Assembly (NCBI GenBank): GCA_026419785.1
Contig: JAODTK010005856.1
Location: 1-64,000, forward strand
DNA length: 64,000 nucleotides
Direction: 5' to 3'
From: Sclerodactyla briareus
Lineage: Eukaryota; Echinodermata; Holothuroidea; Dendrochirotida; Sclerodactylidae
This document shows positions 26,440 through 62,819 of this stretch, in pieces (position 1 is the stretch's first letter; each line of letters begins with the position of its first letter). Position numbers and translations under genes: made by a program. Under the pieces are notes generated by a model. The model ran no database searches, had not been told where the DNA came from, and saw only the letters and a program-made list of their open reading frames with translations.

Positions 26440-26529
<90 letters not shown>
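26440..26529. repeat. Poly-T run of about 89 nt inside the LINE endonuclease region
   Basis: Pure T except one G at 26500. It sits between the QETH-like motif and the WGG motif of the endonuclease, where about 20 codons would be expected. It could be the tail of a minus-strand insertion, an expanded T tract or an assembly artefact. Confidence 0.9.
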
Positions 26530-48999: not shown

Positions 49000-50550
49000 G
49001 AGAAACATTATTGCATGATTTCACATGATGGGCCCTAGGTCCCACATCGGGCCAGAGTTCGCAAACACCCCCGATGGACCACTGTCATTAAATGTAAAAA
49101 TTACATGTAACTTTAAGAAATCAATGAAGCCAATGAGATGCAATTTGTCCTGTACCCTTCTGCATTAAATTTCATACAATGGCCCTCGGCCCAAGTGGGA
49201 CCTTAGACAAAAATCCCAGAACATTTGAAGGTACGGTTGTTAGACCATCATATTAACAATGTCAGCACTGTACACCAAAATTTGTGAGGGGAGAAACATT
49301 TTGCGTAAAGTTCACACAATAGCCCCAAGGGCCCACACTGGCCTTGGGTCCTAAATCCCTGGGCACTCTGAATGTTACGGCTGATAGACCATCAATTATG
49401 ACCGAACATCAGCAATGTCCAACGAATTTGTAGGAAATACAATTTTTCGTGGTATTTCATATAATGGACCCCTGGTTCCAACTGAGCCTGGGCCCCAATG
49501 TCCGCAACACCCCCAATGGAGCTCTACCCAAGACCATTACATGTAACTTTGGAAAAAATCAATTGAAGCTTGTGGAGGAGATGCAGTTCAAAGTACCATT
49601 GTGTGAAATTTCATCAAATGGGCTATCGGGCCCAGGTGGGACCTTTGACCAAACATTCCTGAACCACCCCGAAAGTACTGCAGTTAGACCTCATTATGAC
49701 CGCATGTCAGCACTGCACCAAAATTTGCGTGAGGAGAAGCATTTTGTGTATATCACATGATGGGCGCCAGAGCCCACACTGGGCCTTGGGTCCTAAAATC
49801 CCTGGGCACTCTGAAGGTACGGCTAATAGACCATCATTATGACCGAACATCAGCAATGTCCAACGAAATTGTAGGAAATACAATTTTTCGTGGTATTTCA
49901 ATAATGGACCCCAGGTTCCAACTGAGCTCGGGCCCAAATTTCCCGAACACCCCCAATGGAGCTCTACCCAAGACCATTACATGTAACTTTGGAAAAAATC
50001 AATTGAAGCTGTGGGGGAGAGGCAGGAGAGGAGATGCAGTTCAAAGTACCATTGTGTGAAATTTCATAAAATGGGCCCTCGGGCCCAAGTGGGGACCTTG
50101 ACCAAAATTCCTGAACACCCGGACGAAAAGGACTGCAGTTATTAGACCATCATTATGGACGAATGGGCAGCACTGCCACAAAAATTTGGCCGTGTGAGGA
50201 GAAGCATTTGTTTGATTATCCACAATGATGGGCGCCAGAGCCCACACTGGGCCTTGGGTCCTAAATCCCTGGGCACTCTGAAGGTACGGCTAATACCTGT
50301 AGACCATCAATGTGACCAAACATCAGCAATGTGCAACAATTTTTTTAGGATTTACAAGATTAGCGGTATTTATATATGAGCCCGGGCCGAAAATTCCCGA
50401 ACACCCCCAATGGTCCTCCACCCAAGGACCATTATATGTAACAATGAAGAAAATCAATTGGTACGGCTATTAGACCATCATTATGATGACATCACACTGT
50501 GCCCCAAAATTTGTAGGAGGAGAATACATTTTGATATTTACACATAATAG
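49000..50550 (+). repeat. Satellite array with about 145-bp subunits in a 435-465-bp higher-order unit
   Basis: GGGCCCACACTGGCCTTGGG / GAGCCCACACTGGGCCTTGG with TCCTAAATCCCTGGGCACTC recurs at about 49338, 49772 and 50238 (steps of 434 and 466). Between these lie related subunits with TAGACCATCA, CAGCA.TG, CCAAAATTTG or CCAACGAAATTGTAGGAAAT, and ACACCCCCAATGG..CTACCCAAG. Subunits one higher-order step apart resemble each other more than neighbours do. Flanking stretches 48700-48790 and 50540-50600 share AATAGCCTATA.TGCCC and GGTCAA phrases. Confidence 0.85.
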
Positions 50551-50703
50551 CCTATACTGCCCCTTCAATGGCCTTCGACCTTGACCTGCTTCCACAAGGT
50601 CAACTGTCCCATGGGTCAATGAACATTGTTTCCAAGTTTGGTCGACATCCATGGCAGATGACTTGTTTGAGAGCCAAAAAGGCAATTGTTGACACACTGG
50701 ATG

Positions 50704-50704
<1 letters not shown>

Positions 50705-50800
<96 letters not shown>
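50705..50800. repeat. (GATA)n array, about 24 units
   Basis: Uninterrupted GATA tetramers following GACACACTGGATG. They are followed by CAGATTCCAATAGCTCAACA and GCATAGCTGGTTGAGCT, an AGCTCAAC/GTTGAGCT inverted repeat that probably belongs to the same element. Confidence 0.95.
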
Positions 50801-50801
<1 letters not shown>

Positions 50802-54279: not shown

Positions 54280-55041
54280 TCAGAGGAAGTCTTTGCTAGA
54301 GGTCCTTTGCTCCCCCAGAACCACTACGGTATGGGGACCGTATTGTCGCCGCGTTTCCTCACCTTCAAGAGATGGCGAGGAGGCGGTAGGCACTGGTAGT
54401 TCAATAGTTTCGTTCCGTACGATCGAGTGAAAGGCAGGGCGTCGTTGACACTTGACAGGATGTTCACGATTCCTATCAACTGTTCATCCATTCTGGTAAT
54501 CTTGCTCGAAAGTTTCTCGATATCCTCCTGAGTTCGGCTTGATGTTATATAAGGCTAGTCAGGCGCTGTTGGTCGAGGAAACTCGTGATGGCATGCTTGG
54601 CGGCAGAACTGTTCTCCTTGCCAACTGTCGCTGCGGTTTGCGTCATCGTTCTTCCTGTGATTATCCCCCTCAGGATACCACTTGTCTTAGATTCCAATCT
54701 TGTCAACTTCCTGAAAGGCCCCACCTTGAATGTTTTATTCGGCTCCGAGGATGACCGGCCCACCTTTGAGGGGTTCTTCTTGCGATCAGCGACATGGTTC
54801 GGCCTGGACCTCATTAGTCCCGAGATCGTTCGTTGGTCTTCATAGTTGTGGGTTTGTAGGACTCGAGTACGTTCGTTCAGTTCCACGTCGTTTCCGTTCG
54901 TCGTGTACGGGAACATCGCGAGTTCGGAACTTGTTCAGCATCCTGCGGACAGGGTGATTGGCAGGGATGGGAGGCTCGTTCTTTGCTCTCATCCGCCTGC
55001 TCCCTCTCACGTTGTACATCTGATAGTTTCCGGAATATAAA
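54280..55041 (-). CDS. eag (KCNH1/KCNH5-like): EAG-type K+ channel, last coding exon (post-CNBHD tail, assembly coiled coil)
   Basis: Last coding exon of the channel. The acceptor cttcgatttcag lies just above 55041. The exon opens in phase 0 with FIFRKLSDVQREREQ, matching the IVFRKISDVKREEEE start of the EAG C-terminal tail, then after a frame change MRAKNEPPIPANHPVRRMLN-KFR, equivalent to the KNE..L...HPVRRLFQRFR region that includes a calmodulin-binding site in EAG1. The middle is poorly conserved and basic (SEPNKTFKVGPFRKLTRLES), as is usual for this tail. Near the end QEDIEKLSSKITRMDEQLIG-IVNILSS matches the EAG tetramerising coiled coil. At least three frame changes are needed to connect these pieces. 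The lower boundary is the TGA at 54282-54280 in the frame ending EQRTSSKDFL. Because of the frame changes the true stop could lie elsewhere within about 100 bp. No poly-A site could be assigned. Confidence 0.87.
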
Positions 55042-58000
55042 CTGAAATCGAAGAAAGACTTAGTAGTGCGTCAGTCTGAAGACGTGGCCAAATTGGTTGC
55101 ATATCGGTGTGTTTTGAGACGGTCCAGTTGCACCCACGCTCAACTTTTGAGATTTGGGGCTGGTGATCACGTGAACTGAATTTTATTGATTTGATACCAA
55201 TTTATTAGTATTGGTATGTTGATTAGAATATAAATTCCAGTTGTGGTGTGCGAATGGAAAATTAACAATATTACTCATAAACCGTGTGGCGTCTTGAACG
55301 ACACCGCTGAACACTGTTGTACGACTGATGCATGTCTGCTTTCCGAAAGCAAAATCGCATCGGATTTGTAAAATGATACAGAATTGTACTAGACTGCATG
55401 TACAACTTGGATACCTGATTATCAGTACTGGTATGTTGTGAAATTTTCCACAACATACTGCCATATTGATAACTAAAATATAAATTCCAGTATTGGTGTG
55501 CGAATGGAAAATTAATAATTTTACCCTATATACCATGTGGCCATATTATAACACCGCTTGAGACTGCTGTACGACTGATGCTATATGTCTGCTTTCCGAA
55601 AACAAAATCGCATCGGTTTTGTAAAATCACACAGAATTGTACTTGACTGCATGGGCAACATGTGGCAAATTGGGATACTTAGGCTCCCTTCCCAACCCTT
55701 GAACCAACGGCATGTGCAAACTGTCAATACTTGGGTCCAGAAATGGAAGGTGGGATCAATATCTAGCGACGGATTATAGAACTCCCAGTTGGTTGCCCAA
55801 GAAAGGAGGAAGGATTACGTTTCTTTGGAGGTGGTGATATCTTAAGAACATGAGAATGTTTCTTGCTGCTCCTCGCTCCATCAATTATTATCGAAACATT
55901 TAGCAATAATCAGTTTGCAATATGATGCAACGCTACGAACAAACATAATAGATTCATAAAATATATATGACCCTCATAAACAATATATAACAACGATAGC
56001 ATCGAAAGAGTGAAGCTCTCGTAAGTACACACGGGAGAAACATGATCAACGATGGCACGCATTCACGCAACACAAGATGACTGGGTCTTGACATTTACAC
56101 TATATCCTGACTTCAAAACGAGTTATTAGGGCAACCGAAATACCGTGTCACACCGAGCGAGAAAATCCCGCAATATTCAACCTTGCCAGTTGATCTTTTC
56201 TATTGGGAGGTGTCTGTAGTAGATGCCGAATTTATAATAAGACGCTGCTTGACTGACAATTACCATCGTCCAAGTCTCTAATCAGTACCCTTTGATTTGC
56301 ACCTGAGGGCCATTTCACGGGTCAGAACATAATCAGTTGTGCACATTATGCGTTATCGTAATATATTCTAAAGAGAGATGACCACAAGAGAGAACATCTG
56401 CCGAATTAAATGTTACAGCAGTAAAACAACTATGGAAGGATATTAGAAAATTCCACCCAACTGTAAACAGGTGAATCAGTGCGGGGAATCGCTATGTTAA
56501 TACAGAATACAGATACGAATAAACATAGTCTACAGACCTTCAGATACGAAACAGTCGGTTCCAGTTAATGACACTCTGCGCCGTTTGAGTAATTTAACAT
56601 AACGTATGCTGTACGTATGCCGTACGTGCGGCATAACATGAAACGTTGGTGCTACAGTCATGTCATTCTCTTTATCCCACACGGTTTACATCACAACGAA
56701 CTGTTGTTCGGAACGACTGTGACAAATCTACCCCCCCCCCCCCAAAAAAAAAAAAAATCCGCAAGAGTAATCTATTCAATTATCTCGAAATCTACATTGA
56801 CAATTACCAATCCAACCCCAACTTTTTGTAGTCGGGACAACAAGGATCCAGAATTTGCAATATGAATTTAGGACTCGAACTGGACGAATTTTCGAGAATA
56901 CAATATGACATTCCCGTGAATCATTCAAATTCTCCTAAGTTGGAGACAATTTTATCCTCCCGACTGGGAGTTAAAGCGACACAATCTATTTTTTAATTGA
57001 AACGGCAAAGTTCTCTTGTCCATATAGCTCAATCCGTTACCTGCGTCATCTGTGTCTGACATGGATGGACGCTTTTAGGTACTCTTGATTACTTCACTTA
57101 CTGGATAATTTTGAACAGAGAAACTGTTGAAATAGATTTGGCAATTCACCTAATCAAACAAATGCTGAAGATTGACATCTATTATCTTTAAAATATGTTT
57201 TCTCCGACGGGGACAACGCATAGACCTAGTTAACCGATGACCCATTTTAATTATTGTTATGAATGAACAGCAAGAACCACACATCTACGGAAAATAACCG
57301 GCTCTAGTGAATGAATATAGTCATTATCTCTAAAAATGTAATTGATGGAATAGCTTGGGCAATTTGTCCAATGAAATCAACTGAAGTATTGGATACATTC
57401 TACTTTACGTTCCGACCTAATTATCTATTGGTTGTCGGATGACAGAAACAATTCCGTGCACAGACCGAAACGGGACAAACAGATGAAAAGATAAAATACA
57501 GAATACAAAACACAGAATGCACTTGTATTAAGGTCATATCTTTCACAATACACGATTTTAGTAAAGATATAGAGAGGAAGAATAGTTGTTTTTGTGGGGG
57601 GGGGGGGGGTGGGGGTGGCTCTCCCCATTCGTTTGTTCCCGCTGCAGTATTAACTGCCACGTAGAGATCAGTTGTCCTAATATTCAGTAAATAGAGCATG
57701 TAAGCGTATATCCCCTCTTCCTTTAGGTGGACGCATCGACAAGAGAGACGCAAAAGAAAGATATTAACTTTCACCTTTCCTCTGAAAAAAATGGAAAATA
57801 TATCTCATTTACAAAGGTTTCTTGGCATCATATATAAAACAGCCTCACCGACATGCGAAATCACTGAAAAAGCGGGCCTCACCGTTCATGTAGTTCTGCT
57901 TTGGCTGTAAATGCATCCCATCCCTACAACGTGAATGTGTAAACTTCTATTTTAACGCGTAACATAAAACATCTGAACATTCGGTTTAGGCAACATGCGA

Positions 58001-59101
58001 CTTGACAAAGCAGTTACTGTGACAAAAATGTGGATATTTAATGGAATAAAAAATAGAAGCACCCATCTTCCTTATCCACGTTACTCAGCTAGGAAATATT
58101 AGGAGGTTAATCAGCCATATGAGGGAGGGGGGAAGACCATAACCTTCAAAACTGAATTTCCGCCCAATTCGCCTTTTTTTGTATAGCGATCGTCACCCAG
58201 CGACCATTCTCCAGCGCTGTAACCAGGGATTTGTTCCCTAGTCCGATCACCAATCACTATGCTTATGAGTTACGCTTCATGGAGCGGTCTAGAATGAACC
58301 ACTGGACTGCAGAAACTATTTGACCACACGATATGTCGGTGATTGGTTAAGACCAGGTCTTGTTATCGAAAACGTCTGCAAGTTGTCGGAGATAAAAACC
58401 GACCCATTAATTGTATTACAGTAGGAACCGTTAGAGCAGTATCCAGTTGATCCTTACTTTGGACACCAGGATTGTATTATCTGCAAGGCGGAAAATGATC
58501 TTCATCGCACTGCTTCAGAAGCCTCTTAGAGGTAGCCCAATCAATCTTAGTATTAGGTGGAAAACACACCTATGTGGTAAGCTAAATATCTCGAGCAATT
58601 TCCATGAAAACGATAATACTGCCTCATTCCTATGTGTGAGGACCTACGATCAGCGAGCTAAGAATCAGGGTAAAAGTTATAAGGTGTTGCTCTTCTAGTT
58701 TCCATTAAGGAGTGGTTGTGTACTTTTGAAATCTTCCTCAAAGACCATAGTGCTGTAGGTCGTTTAGTTACAGCTTTCAACAGCGCTTGTCGCTGAAACT
58801 TGCGGGGTGTCATATTATGTTGGTACACTCGTCATGTAAACATCGCAGTCCGTTCTTCAGTTCTATACACCTCATACTTCCTGATCAAATATTAATAATA
58901 ATAGTTCAGTAAACCCCTTGTTGACTATTGAACTTGAATTATCGAAAACACCATAAGTAGCAATAGTCAATGATGACAATAATGTAATTCAACCTAATCT
59001 GTAGCATTTTGCAATTTCTGAGATCCTGACGATAAGTGTAAGATTACATTACTCCAGAACGATAGGTATAGCAACATATTTAAAAAAAGACTCGAACTCA
59101 C
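55042..59101 (-). other. Last intron of the EAG-type channel gene
   Basis: Intron of about 4.06 kb with a gtgagt donor and a pyrimidine-rich tttcttcgatttcag acceptor. It contains the 250-bp tandem duplication at 55.23-55.68 kb, a C/A homopolymer junction at 56.73 kb and a G-run at 57.59 kb. I see no exon-like open frame in the rest of it. Confidence 0.85.
55227..55680 (+). repeat. Two-unit tandem duplication, 250-bp period, in last EAG intron
   Basis: AATATAAATTCCAGT..TGGTGTGCGAATGGAAAATTAA starts at 55227 and 55477. Both units continue with ACACCGCT, GTACGACTGATGC, TGTCTGCTTTCCGAAA, CAAAATCGCATCGG, TTTGTAAAAT and ACAGAATTGTACT.GACTGCATG. Identity is near 85-90%, so the duplication is fairly recent. 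Non-coding. Confidence 0.9.
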
Positions 59102-59296
59102 CCTGTGTCTAAGGTTGTACGTGAGCACCATATTCCTGGCGAATGAGTTAGCGAACCCAGTGTAGAACTCGGTACCCGATAAGGTCATCTCGCTTGATCG
59201 AGTGAAGGTCACAGTAGGTGAGAGCCTTAACATTAGCGGCGGACTGACTCAGAGTCACTTCTTTCCAGAACTGATCCCCGAAAACATCACCTTTAC
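59102..59296 (-). CDS. eag (KCNH1/KCNH5-like): EAG-type K+ channel, exon for second half of CNBHD
   Basis: The next exon of the same channel. It begins in phase with the exon at 62569 (G|GT AAA gives G-K) and reads [38 protein letters not shown], then in a shifted frame [33 protein letters not shown] and [11 protein letters not shown] identify EAG rather than ERG or ELK. The YNL triplet near the end is the segment known in the family as the intrinsic ligand that occupies the nucleotide pocket of this domain. The acceptor is ctcttaaag before 59296 and the donor is a canonical gtgagt starting at 59101. Length is 195 nt against 197 expected, so 2 nt are missing around CTTATCGGGTACCGAG, between DDLI and EFYTGF. 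Intron sizes are about 3.3 kb upstream and 4.1 kb downstream. Confidence 0.95.
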
Positions 59297-59749
59297 CTTT
59301 AAGAGAATGAAAAAGATATCGAAAATTTAGGGTCATGCATGATTCTATTGGCTCAATTACCGACCTGATACGGCATTCCGTCGCAAAGTTGATGTATTTC
59401 GGAGATGGGATTTGGGGTTCTCATGTGGATTTGTTCAATATCGCGAAAATCCACATTGTACAATAATTGATGACGCCTGTGCTGGACAATATCAACAATT
59501 CCATATGCATTTCATTGTTTTTTATGTTTGTGAAACCTTACGTTGCACAAACGATTGGCATGTTTTCCCAATGAAAATAAAAATAGTTCGATAAATGAAC
59601 TTTTTCATTTTGTTACGTATTCATTTTTTTTTTTTTTACTCCAAGTTTTGATCACCTTGATCTGTTGATCTGATGGGTTGATTACTGGATTTTGTTAATT
59701 CTGACTCATTAACATTATTAATGAGAACAGAAACATGAAGAAGGATATT

Positions 59750-60190
59750 TAACTATAGGCATGGAATTTTGCAAAAATCTGACAAAGTTTGAATTTTGCA
59801 TAAATGAGCGAAATTAGATCCATTGAATGACTTCTAGTGACCCGGGCCCGTTCATTAGGATTCCTTAAACCAAGTGTAGATGACATCCACAAATTTACAT
59901 AATACAACAACTTGAGGATTTCGCATGAATTATGCAAATCAGATACACTAAATGACCCGATGACCCCCGGTGACCCCGAGTTCACTGTTAAAATCATCAG
60001 AACTAATGGTAGGACATATCCACCAAGTTCATTAAAATCTGACCAACTCAAAAAAATCGCATGATTCATGAGAATTAGAAACGCTTGCTCTCTTCCAGTG
60101 ACTTCGACTCCACTCTTAACTTCCTCTACACTAGAAGTAAAACATATCCCTTTTAAAAAAAAAATCACATAAATTATGCAAATTGGATTA
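59750..60190 (+). repeat. Diverged tandem repeat, about 110-135-bp period, in EAG intron
   Basis: The core T(T/C)GCAT(A/G)A.TTATGCAAAT recurs at about 59796, 59918, 60053 and 60165. TGA(C/A)TTC..GTGACCC phrases follow the first three. Confidence 0.7.
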
Positions 60191-60473
60191 ATGAAATTAG
60201 TATATTTTTTTTCGGAAAATCGAATCAGTTCACCTACCTGTCATACTGCTTCTGTATATATCAAATCCACATAATCATAGCATTTGCGTTATCACGGAAC
60301 CTGCTAACAAGTAAAACAATGAAAATACATGAAACAGCTATTTACCCATCTTAATTGAGGTTTTGGTGACCAAATCTAATCAGATCATTTCACCCCACAC
60401 GCACGAGCACACACCCAAAGCTTCGTCGCAATCCGTCGTACAGTTCGGGAGAAATCCCGCTAACGTGAAAACC

Positions 60474-60515
60474 TGACACACACACGCACACACACACACA
60501 CACAAACACGCATAC
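60474..60515. repeat. CA dinucleotide repeat
   Basis: ACACACACACGCACACACAC-type tract in the EAG intron. Confidence 0.85.
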
Positions 60516-61329
60516 ACAAACGCTAGAGTGGTCGCTATGTATCTTCGAATTCCCGAATTTAATCCAGGCGAGAAAAATAAACTGTTTGGTTGCATAGGTG
60601 TTGCAAAGTGTGTTGTTGCGCAATATTGTGCAATATACACGGACTCAATACTTCAATTTTGAAACGCCCAAGTTGAATTTTTATCTTCGTTAATATGGAT
60701 GCAGCTTGTTGATCTAGTCCTCTAAAACCGGATTATAGGTAGTCATAAATTACCCACGACTAATAAGCCCACAATCGGAATGATAGTGTTAGTGTTACCT
60801 TCTCTGACTAAAGCATTTGAAAATCAGAAATCGAGTATCAAAACACTTGTACCAAATTGTAAAATTAATACCACTAGGATTGGGCCTGTTAACTGTGATA
60901 ACATGTGTGGCACACTTTTATACAGGCATTGTGAGGATTTGTGACGAATCGAACAGGATGGTTCCGCATCCACCCTCACATTCTCACCACAGTTAAGAGA
61001 GACCAGGAACTCAACCTGTTCCCCTGAGAACGAGCGCAGATCTTGATGCCGACATTAACTGCGATAGTTGAGTGGTAGAATAGTGCACTAAATAGTTTTA
61101 TGGCGATACGTTTAAGGGAAATTAGCGATGCCGAAACGATTCAATGGCTGGGAGAGCTAGAGGAATTGATTGAAAATTTGATCGAAGCGTCAAACAGGGC
61201 TTTGTCTTATTTATTGTATTAAGCGTGAGTTCCGTGTATGAATTGTTCCGAGATTATTTATTCTTATTTCGAGTTTCCATCGCGAGCTCCATGATCGTAG
61301 AATAATGTCGATACTTTCCAAGGCGAATA

Positions 61330-61692
61330 AGAAGAGGATTCTCTTGCGAAGTGCTTAATCGAGTGGTTGGCACTCCAGGGGTTTGGTAGCGCGCGGACCT
61401 TTCACCGGGGAGACCGGGGTTTCGATCTCCGGTTAGGGTAGACCAAAAGGCTTTTAAAAAATGGTACCTGTTGCCTTCTCGTTGGAAGCTCAGCAAAAGG
61501 GAATGGAGCAGGAACAAACGAGGGGTAGGCAAGTTGCGTACCCCCAGTCCCCACACTAGGCTTGCAAGTTGCCTTATTCCGTGTACCTGGTAAGGGATTC
61601 GCAGCTGACAATAGGTTGCAGTATCAGGGTCTGCACCCTTGCTGGGCCTTGATAGGAACGATCCTCTGCTCAGCAAGTGTACCATATAAAAA
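61330..61692 (+). mobile_element. tRNA-derived SINE
   Basis: The head has an A-box-like TGGTAGCGCGCGG (61384) and a B-box GGTTTCGATCTCC (61418-61430), with the tRNA-like piece ACCTTTCACC..GGGGAGACC between them. The body follows and an A-rich end (61686-61694) closes it. The spacing is shorter than in a tRNA gene and no cloverleaf closes, so it is a SINE, not a functional tRNA. The 177-codon minus-strand frame across it is incidental. Confidence 0.7.
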
Positions 61693-62568
61693 AAAAGGCT
61701 CACAAAGCCTTTACTGCATGCTTGTAGCATATTTAATGTGACAGTGGAACGTGCGCCATACCAGCGCCACAAGCCTTCCCAGTTCATAGCTAATATTCAC
61801 TAAAAAACAACAACATTTAAACCTAAAATGATCAAATCCGATGTGGAGGAATCGCCAATTTTTTCCTCATTTATCGATCATGTTTGAGAATAACGATAAT
61901 GCGGTGATATAATGATGTATACAATGCCGGGTTGGACTCTTTTTTTTCTCGTGTTTTGCGTGTTACTCACTACGCTCCCGTTTTCTAATCATTAAGGAAT
62001 GACCAGTTAACAGCTACTAACACTTGACGAAAAGACCTGGGAACGGTAACTTAATAGGATGGCGCAAAGCTCTAATAAGTAGGTTACACTAACCAGTGGG
62101 TGGCTTCTAAATCTGATTTTCTCCGCTGCCAAGGAAGCAACAAACTAACTGTAATCGTGTCACATATCCCTATATTTGTCTCTATGAGTAACCCCCCCCC
62201 CCTCAATGTAATTATTCTTTTGAGGACATAGTATGAGTCATGACGCGCATCTTCTTCAAAATAAGGATTTCTTCCCCTACTGCGCAATATTATGGGAATG
62301 GGAATGACACGTTGAGTCGTTCTACTATTGAGTTACATACTTTGTTTGGAGTTGCCTATTGGAGTGGCCTGCCTGTTGCGGTGGCCTTTTGGGATAGCTT
62401 TCCTGATGGGCTGGATTGATTGTACTGGCTGGGTGAAGAAAAAAAAACTTCTCATATCGACTAACTGAACTAAATAGAAGCCACGAGGCGCCAAATGAAA
62501 GGCCAAAGAAAATAACGTCAGATACAAAAGCTGTTCTTAAATAGCTAATGCTCGTGTGAAATACAAAC

Positions 62569-62819
62569 CTAGAATAGCGACCACTTCATCATCCTGGATA
62601 ACCTCTAATGACCCGGACACTACGAGAACAAACTGTCTATGCTCTCCCGCTATGTATGAGGAGGTCGCCAGGGGCGCTGTGGCCCATTGAGAAACTGATG
62701 GCGAGCGCCCTCAGACAACCTTCACTCGCCAACCGGAAGGCTGGATGTTCGTTGAAGACCTTTCTGTTGAGATGCACACAGACGTCGGCTTTCATGTCCT
62801 TCGGACAGTAGCTTAGAAC
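62569..62819 (-). CDS. eag (KCNH1/KCNH5-like): EAG-type K+ channel, exon for C-linker end and first half of CNBHD
   Basis: Internal exon of a voltage-gated potassium channel of the ether-a-go-go (Kv10) family, a plasma-membrane tetramer. Read on the minus strand it starts [18 protein letters not shown] and continues through [26 protein letters not shown] and, after a frame change, [19 protein letters not shown]. This follows EAG1/EAG2 almost residue for residue and covers the end of the C-linker and the first strands of the cyclic-nucleotide-binding homology domain. The acceptor (ttcgtcacag) lies just above 62819 and the donor (gtttgta) starts at 62568. The exon ends in phase 1, with the G of a glycine codon completed by the exon at 59296. 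It is 251 nt long where family alignment predicts 253. Two single-base gaps, near GG|GAGAGC and TTGTT|CTCGTA, restore the reading, so the frame passes to +1 over the last 28 codons. The preceding exon, which should end in the C-linker, is not visible in the remaining 1.2 kb of the window. Confidence 0.95.

Follow-up and report, generated by a model that had tools for sequence, protein, structure and literature searches.

The 3′ end of the eag potassium-channel gene of Sclerodactyla briareus and the probable origin of its broken reading frames

Three terminal exons and the remainder of the gene

The window, that is the whole stretch of 64,000 bases analyzed here, comprises positions 1-64000 of a contig of 705,499 bases (C3099). 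It carries the terminal exons of eag, which is predicted to encode a voltage-gated potassium channel. The sequence-only reading had recognized peptides in family order on one strand, which it did not name. In a six-frame scan of the 64 kb window allowing few mismatches, all seven peptides were present exactly and once each, in EAG order on the minus strand.

Exon A (62819-62569, minus strand) is preceded by AG and followed by GT, enters in phase 0 and leaves in phase 1. It encodes the end of the C-linker and the first part of the cyclic-nucleotide-binding homology domain (cNBHD), up to ...VVAILG. The intron between exons A and B (62568-59297, minus strand) starts with GTTTGT and ends with AAAG. 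The codon split across this intron yields G-K-G-D-V, the same as in EAG. Exon B (59296-59102, minus strand), preceded by AG and followed by GTGAGT, ends in phase 0 and encodes the remainder of the cNBHD, up to ...LTYNLRHR. The motif TYNL presumably represents the residues of the built-in ligand strand. The second intron (59101-55042, minus strand) runs from GTGAGT to TCAG. Exon C, the last exon (55041-54280, minus strand), is preceded by AG and encodes the post-cNBHD stretch FIFRKLSDVQRE...HPVRRML, followed by a variable tail. A coiled-coil-like piece, EDIEKLSSKITRMDEQL, is located at 54527-54477 on the minus strand. Breaks and high variability defeat a tracing of the tail (54.9-54.3 kb), and the stop at 54282-54280 is only a candidate for the end of the frame. 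The GT..AG borders and the phases 1 then 0 proposed beforehand were read directly at exons A, B and C. Frame breaks had likewise been described for all three, and at least one frame change was found in each. The alignment placed two breaks in exon A near 62644 and 62627 and those in exon B near 59179-59171, and exon C contains several.

The assignment to EAG was examined with working reference sequences for the known channels. A tblastn search of the whole window with a working vertebrate KCNH1 sequence matched all three exons (E = 7e-29, 3e-21 and 1.7e-6). In phmmer searches against PDB sequences, the open part of exon A matched KCNH5 (1e-26) and KCNH1 (2e-26) ahead of KCNH2 (1.2e-12), and the open part of exon B matched KCNH1 (1.5e-16) ahead of KCNH2 (1.3e-6). 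The cNBHD is closer to EAG than to ERG, as the KCNH1 and KCNH5 chains outrank KCNH2, AGAP007709-PA (4l11) and the KCNH entry 3ukn. With X put at the frame breaks, exon C matched KCNH5 (2e-8) and KCNH1 (5.5e-7). The coiled-coil-like piece aligned with the tails of KCNH5 and KCNH1, its own scores being just 10.8 and 9.1 bits. The Pfam family cNMP_binding was recognized across exons A and B with 34 bits (cut-off 27.5), while the Pfam search with exon C yielded no family. Four chosen pieces of exons A and B were compared with fly Eag (49/58, 17/19, 31/39 and 19/23 identical positions) and with vertebrate KCNH1 (43/58, 19/19, 32/39 and 16/23), both as working reference sequences. The reading as three terminal EAG exons is supported, with EAG ahead of ERG for the pieces of exons A and B.

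A search for the PAS, S1-S6 and pore exons in the contig sequence to the right of the window had been proposed, and they were found there, PAS and exon 1 on weak matches. The tblastn search with the working KCNH1 sequence covered the first 124 kb and then the first 224 kb of the contig. All upstream pieces lie on the minus strand in EAG order and continue into the window exons. The voltage-gated core S1-S6 with the K+ filter SVGFGN is present in pieces at contig 69983-65503: S1-S3 at 69.98-69.60 kb, S4 to the SVGFGN filter at 67.37-66.97 kb, and S6 with the C-linker at 65.71-65.50 kb. The N-terminal PAS (eag) domain was identified on weaker matches, a PAS piece at 88253-88122 (E 3.9e-8) and a piece of the first PAS exon at 117799-117584 (E 0.007). 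Order alone places a linker piece at 86.1 kb (E 0.9). A possible exon 1 of 18 residues at 193672-193619 gave a weak match (E 0.008), which reached 4.5e-5 with an N-terminal query. In comparisons of three upstream pieces with PDB sequences, KCNH1 and KCNH5 ranked above KCNH2 in each. The ten matched pieces are taken as exons. The gene extends over at least 63 kb, between 54.3 kb in the window and contig 117.8 kb; should the exon 1 match at 193.7 kb hold, it would reach about 139 kb. Almost the whole architecture is present, from PAS, with exon 1 probable, to the last exon.

The locus shares with EAG/Kv10 channels (KCNH1, KCNH5 and fly Eag) the domain order, the SVGFGN filter, the cNBHD, the TYNL strand and, tentatively, a coiled-coil-like piece close to the C-terminal end. 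It differs in the frames, which are broken in the present assembly, and in the last exon, whose variable tail has no reliable alignment. With ERG/Kv11 (KCNH2) it has the common channel family and the overall plan, but KCNH2 scored below EAG for all five pieces tested, two from the window and three from upstream. By analogy with the family, the product would be a tetrameric voltage-gated K+ channel. The part encoded in the window would form the cNBHD, the built-in ligand strand and the C-terminal assembly region.

Frame breaks in eag and in control genes

A frame-tolerant alignment of the trimmed conserved part of eag comprised 684 codons, 440 of them identical to the working vertebrate KCNH1 sequence. 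It contained 24 frame breaks and was free of in-frame stops. With wider alignment limits the count of breaks rose to 40 in nine regions, the last exon contributing 14. The first PAS exon at 117.8 kb is very poor, with eight breaks in 70 codons. Some of the counted breaks may be artefacts of exon ends. Because the aligner sets the same penalty on stops and on frame breaks, its count of zero stops carries a bias. A stop is present in two tblastn rows for eag, and the aligner accounts for both as frame breaks.

An automatic gene finder had been predicted to miss the gene. A Pfam search of the assembly with Ion_trans resulted in six matches, two of them with internal stops. None lies on the eag contig, hence the eag core is missed by this standard model.

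The whole assembly (319,486,128 bases in 3171 contigs) was searched with the exon A piece. Two matches were obtained, the window itself and a weak match on contig C1541 (E 0.0056, 40% identity). No further close copy of this piece turned up in the search. An intact second eag copy in the assembly, which according to the sequence-only reading could have marked the present locus as a pseudogene, is rejected on this single close match to the exon A piece. A single eag locus is also expected from the literature (PMC9989356). The pieces on C1541, at about 370.9-394.7 kb, align to a working KCNH2 piece, and this locus is taken as a putative Erg, separate from eag. It contains 10 frame breaks in 264 codons, three of its five pieces being broken and two clean.

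Histone H4 is nearly invariant across animals. Six H4 matches in the assembly correspond to four distinct copies on contigs C1362 and C2362. All four are frame-broken, with 11, 10, 8 and 5 breaks over 292-330 bases (34 in 368 codons), while 69 to 78 of 92 aligned residues are identical. As H4 hardly varies, the organism cannot own only such broken copies, and their state points to low base accuracy of the assembly. Per 100 bp, breaks numbered 1.17 in eag, 1.26 in Erg and 3.08 in H4; these values are rough, because searches pick up intact pieces more readily. Of four partial matches to the chaperonin family (PF00118), three have internal stops, which could fall within intron sequence.

Actin yielded 27 matches. 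Among the 26 tabulated, nine adjoining or overlapping pairs were in different frames, and such neighbours occurred in six of seven clusters grouped by position. Neighbours in the same frame merge into one match, so the actin pairs show the presence of breaks but give no measure of how frequently they are lacking. Open frames of 86-138 residues with 86-91% identity stand in four actin exons. A query with eEF1A retrieved two pieces only, with 45% and 51% identity, both presumably eRF3. Their open stretches measure about 62 and 52 codons. In the first, four frame breaks beyond about residue 117 are read as the alignment overrunning the end of the exon. In the second, a single TAG stands in the match to the eEF1A query and none in the alignment. 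The open actin exons and the eRF3-like pieces indicate an uneven assembly quality, with eag below the standard of the best actin exons.

Origin of the broken frames

The locus is best explained as an ordinary eag orthologue of the KCNH1/KCNH5 type (Kv10) whose breaks stem from assembly error, with a probability of about 0.88. The frame breaks would be base-level errors in a presumably under-polished assembly, probably of long reads. A passage in the literature describes errors of long reads as bringing in frameshifts and stops and so pseudogenizing genes (PMC12007338). If the breaks are assembly errors, the animal's own eag is most likely intact.

A unitary pseudogene, with eag lost from the species and the frame breaks real, is unlikely. 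The 24 breaks in 684 codons together with the missing second close copy of exon A would suit such a loss, as would a break density in eag above that of the best-preserved actin exons. However, a decaying gene should have accumulated stops: at assumed ratios of 2, 4 and 8 substitutions per indel, 1.6, 3.3 and 6.6 are expected, with probabilities of 0.19, 0.04 and 0.001 of seeing none, whereas the alignment, subject to the aligner bias, contains none in frame. The window exons have moreover kept their splice borders and phases, SVGFGN and TYNL are preserved, and H4, Erg and actin are likewise broken in the same assembly.

Three EAG-family channels, Eag, Erg and Elk, are inferred for the bilaterian ancestor. 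That the breaks are real and that the animal has lost its only eag, and with it one of these three, is judged quite improbable.

A decayed duplicate or second haplotype, with the intact eag absent from the assembly, is very unlikely. The assembly is perhaps incomplete, since a search for COX1 gave no match and the eEF1A query retrieved only the two pieces of low identity described above. Against a duplicate stand the nearly whole architecture of the gene and the single close copy of the exon A piece. Chance similarity without any gene can be dismissed, given E values down to 1e-26, ordered pieces and matching phases.

An ordinary eag gene read through assembly errors is a further orthologue of a familiar ion channel and has little import for channel biology. 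The practical consequence is a caution: gene finders will miss genes in this assembly. With all four of the detected H4 copies frame-broken, a broken frame in any gene here is no proof of a pseudogene without reads.

Repeats and other features in and near the window

No Rfam family at gathering score and no tRNA was detected in the window. Ten long frames of the window gave no Pfam family above cut-off, with one sub-threshold lectin match (E 0.023). An interspersed repeat occupies 61403-61692. By eye it has, like a SINE, a tRNA-like stretch near 61380-61440, which received no tRNA or Rfam call. Diverged copies of the repeat at contig 67641-67901 (73%) and 86704-86489 (77-92%) both sit between matched eag pieces. 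The intron directly before exon C contains two diverged direct copies at 55160-55710, about 250 bases apart and 84-90% alike. A tandem repeat at 49240-50337 consists of 2.4 copies of a unit of about 440 bases. More diverged pieces of it are found at 49100-49222 and extend to 50552, and a related stretch is located in inverted orientation at 2443-2164 (66%). Simple repeats include a run of 90 T at 26440-26529 and an array of 25 GATA copies at 50700-50801.
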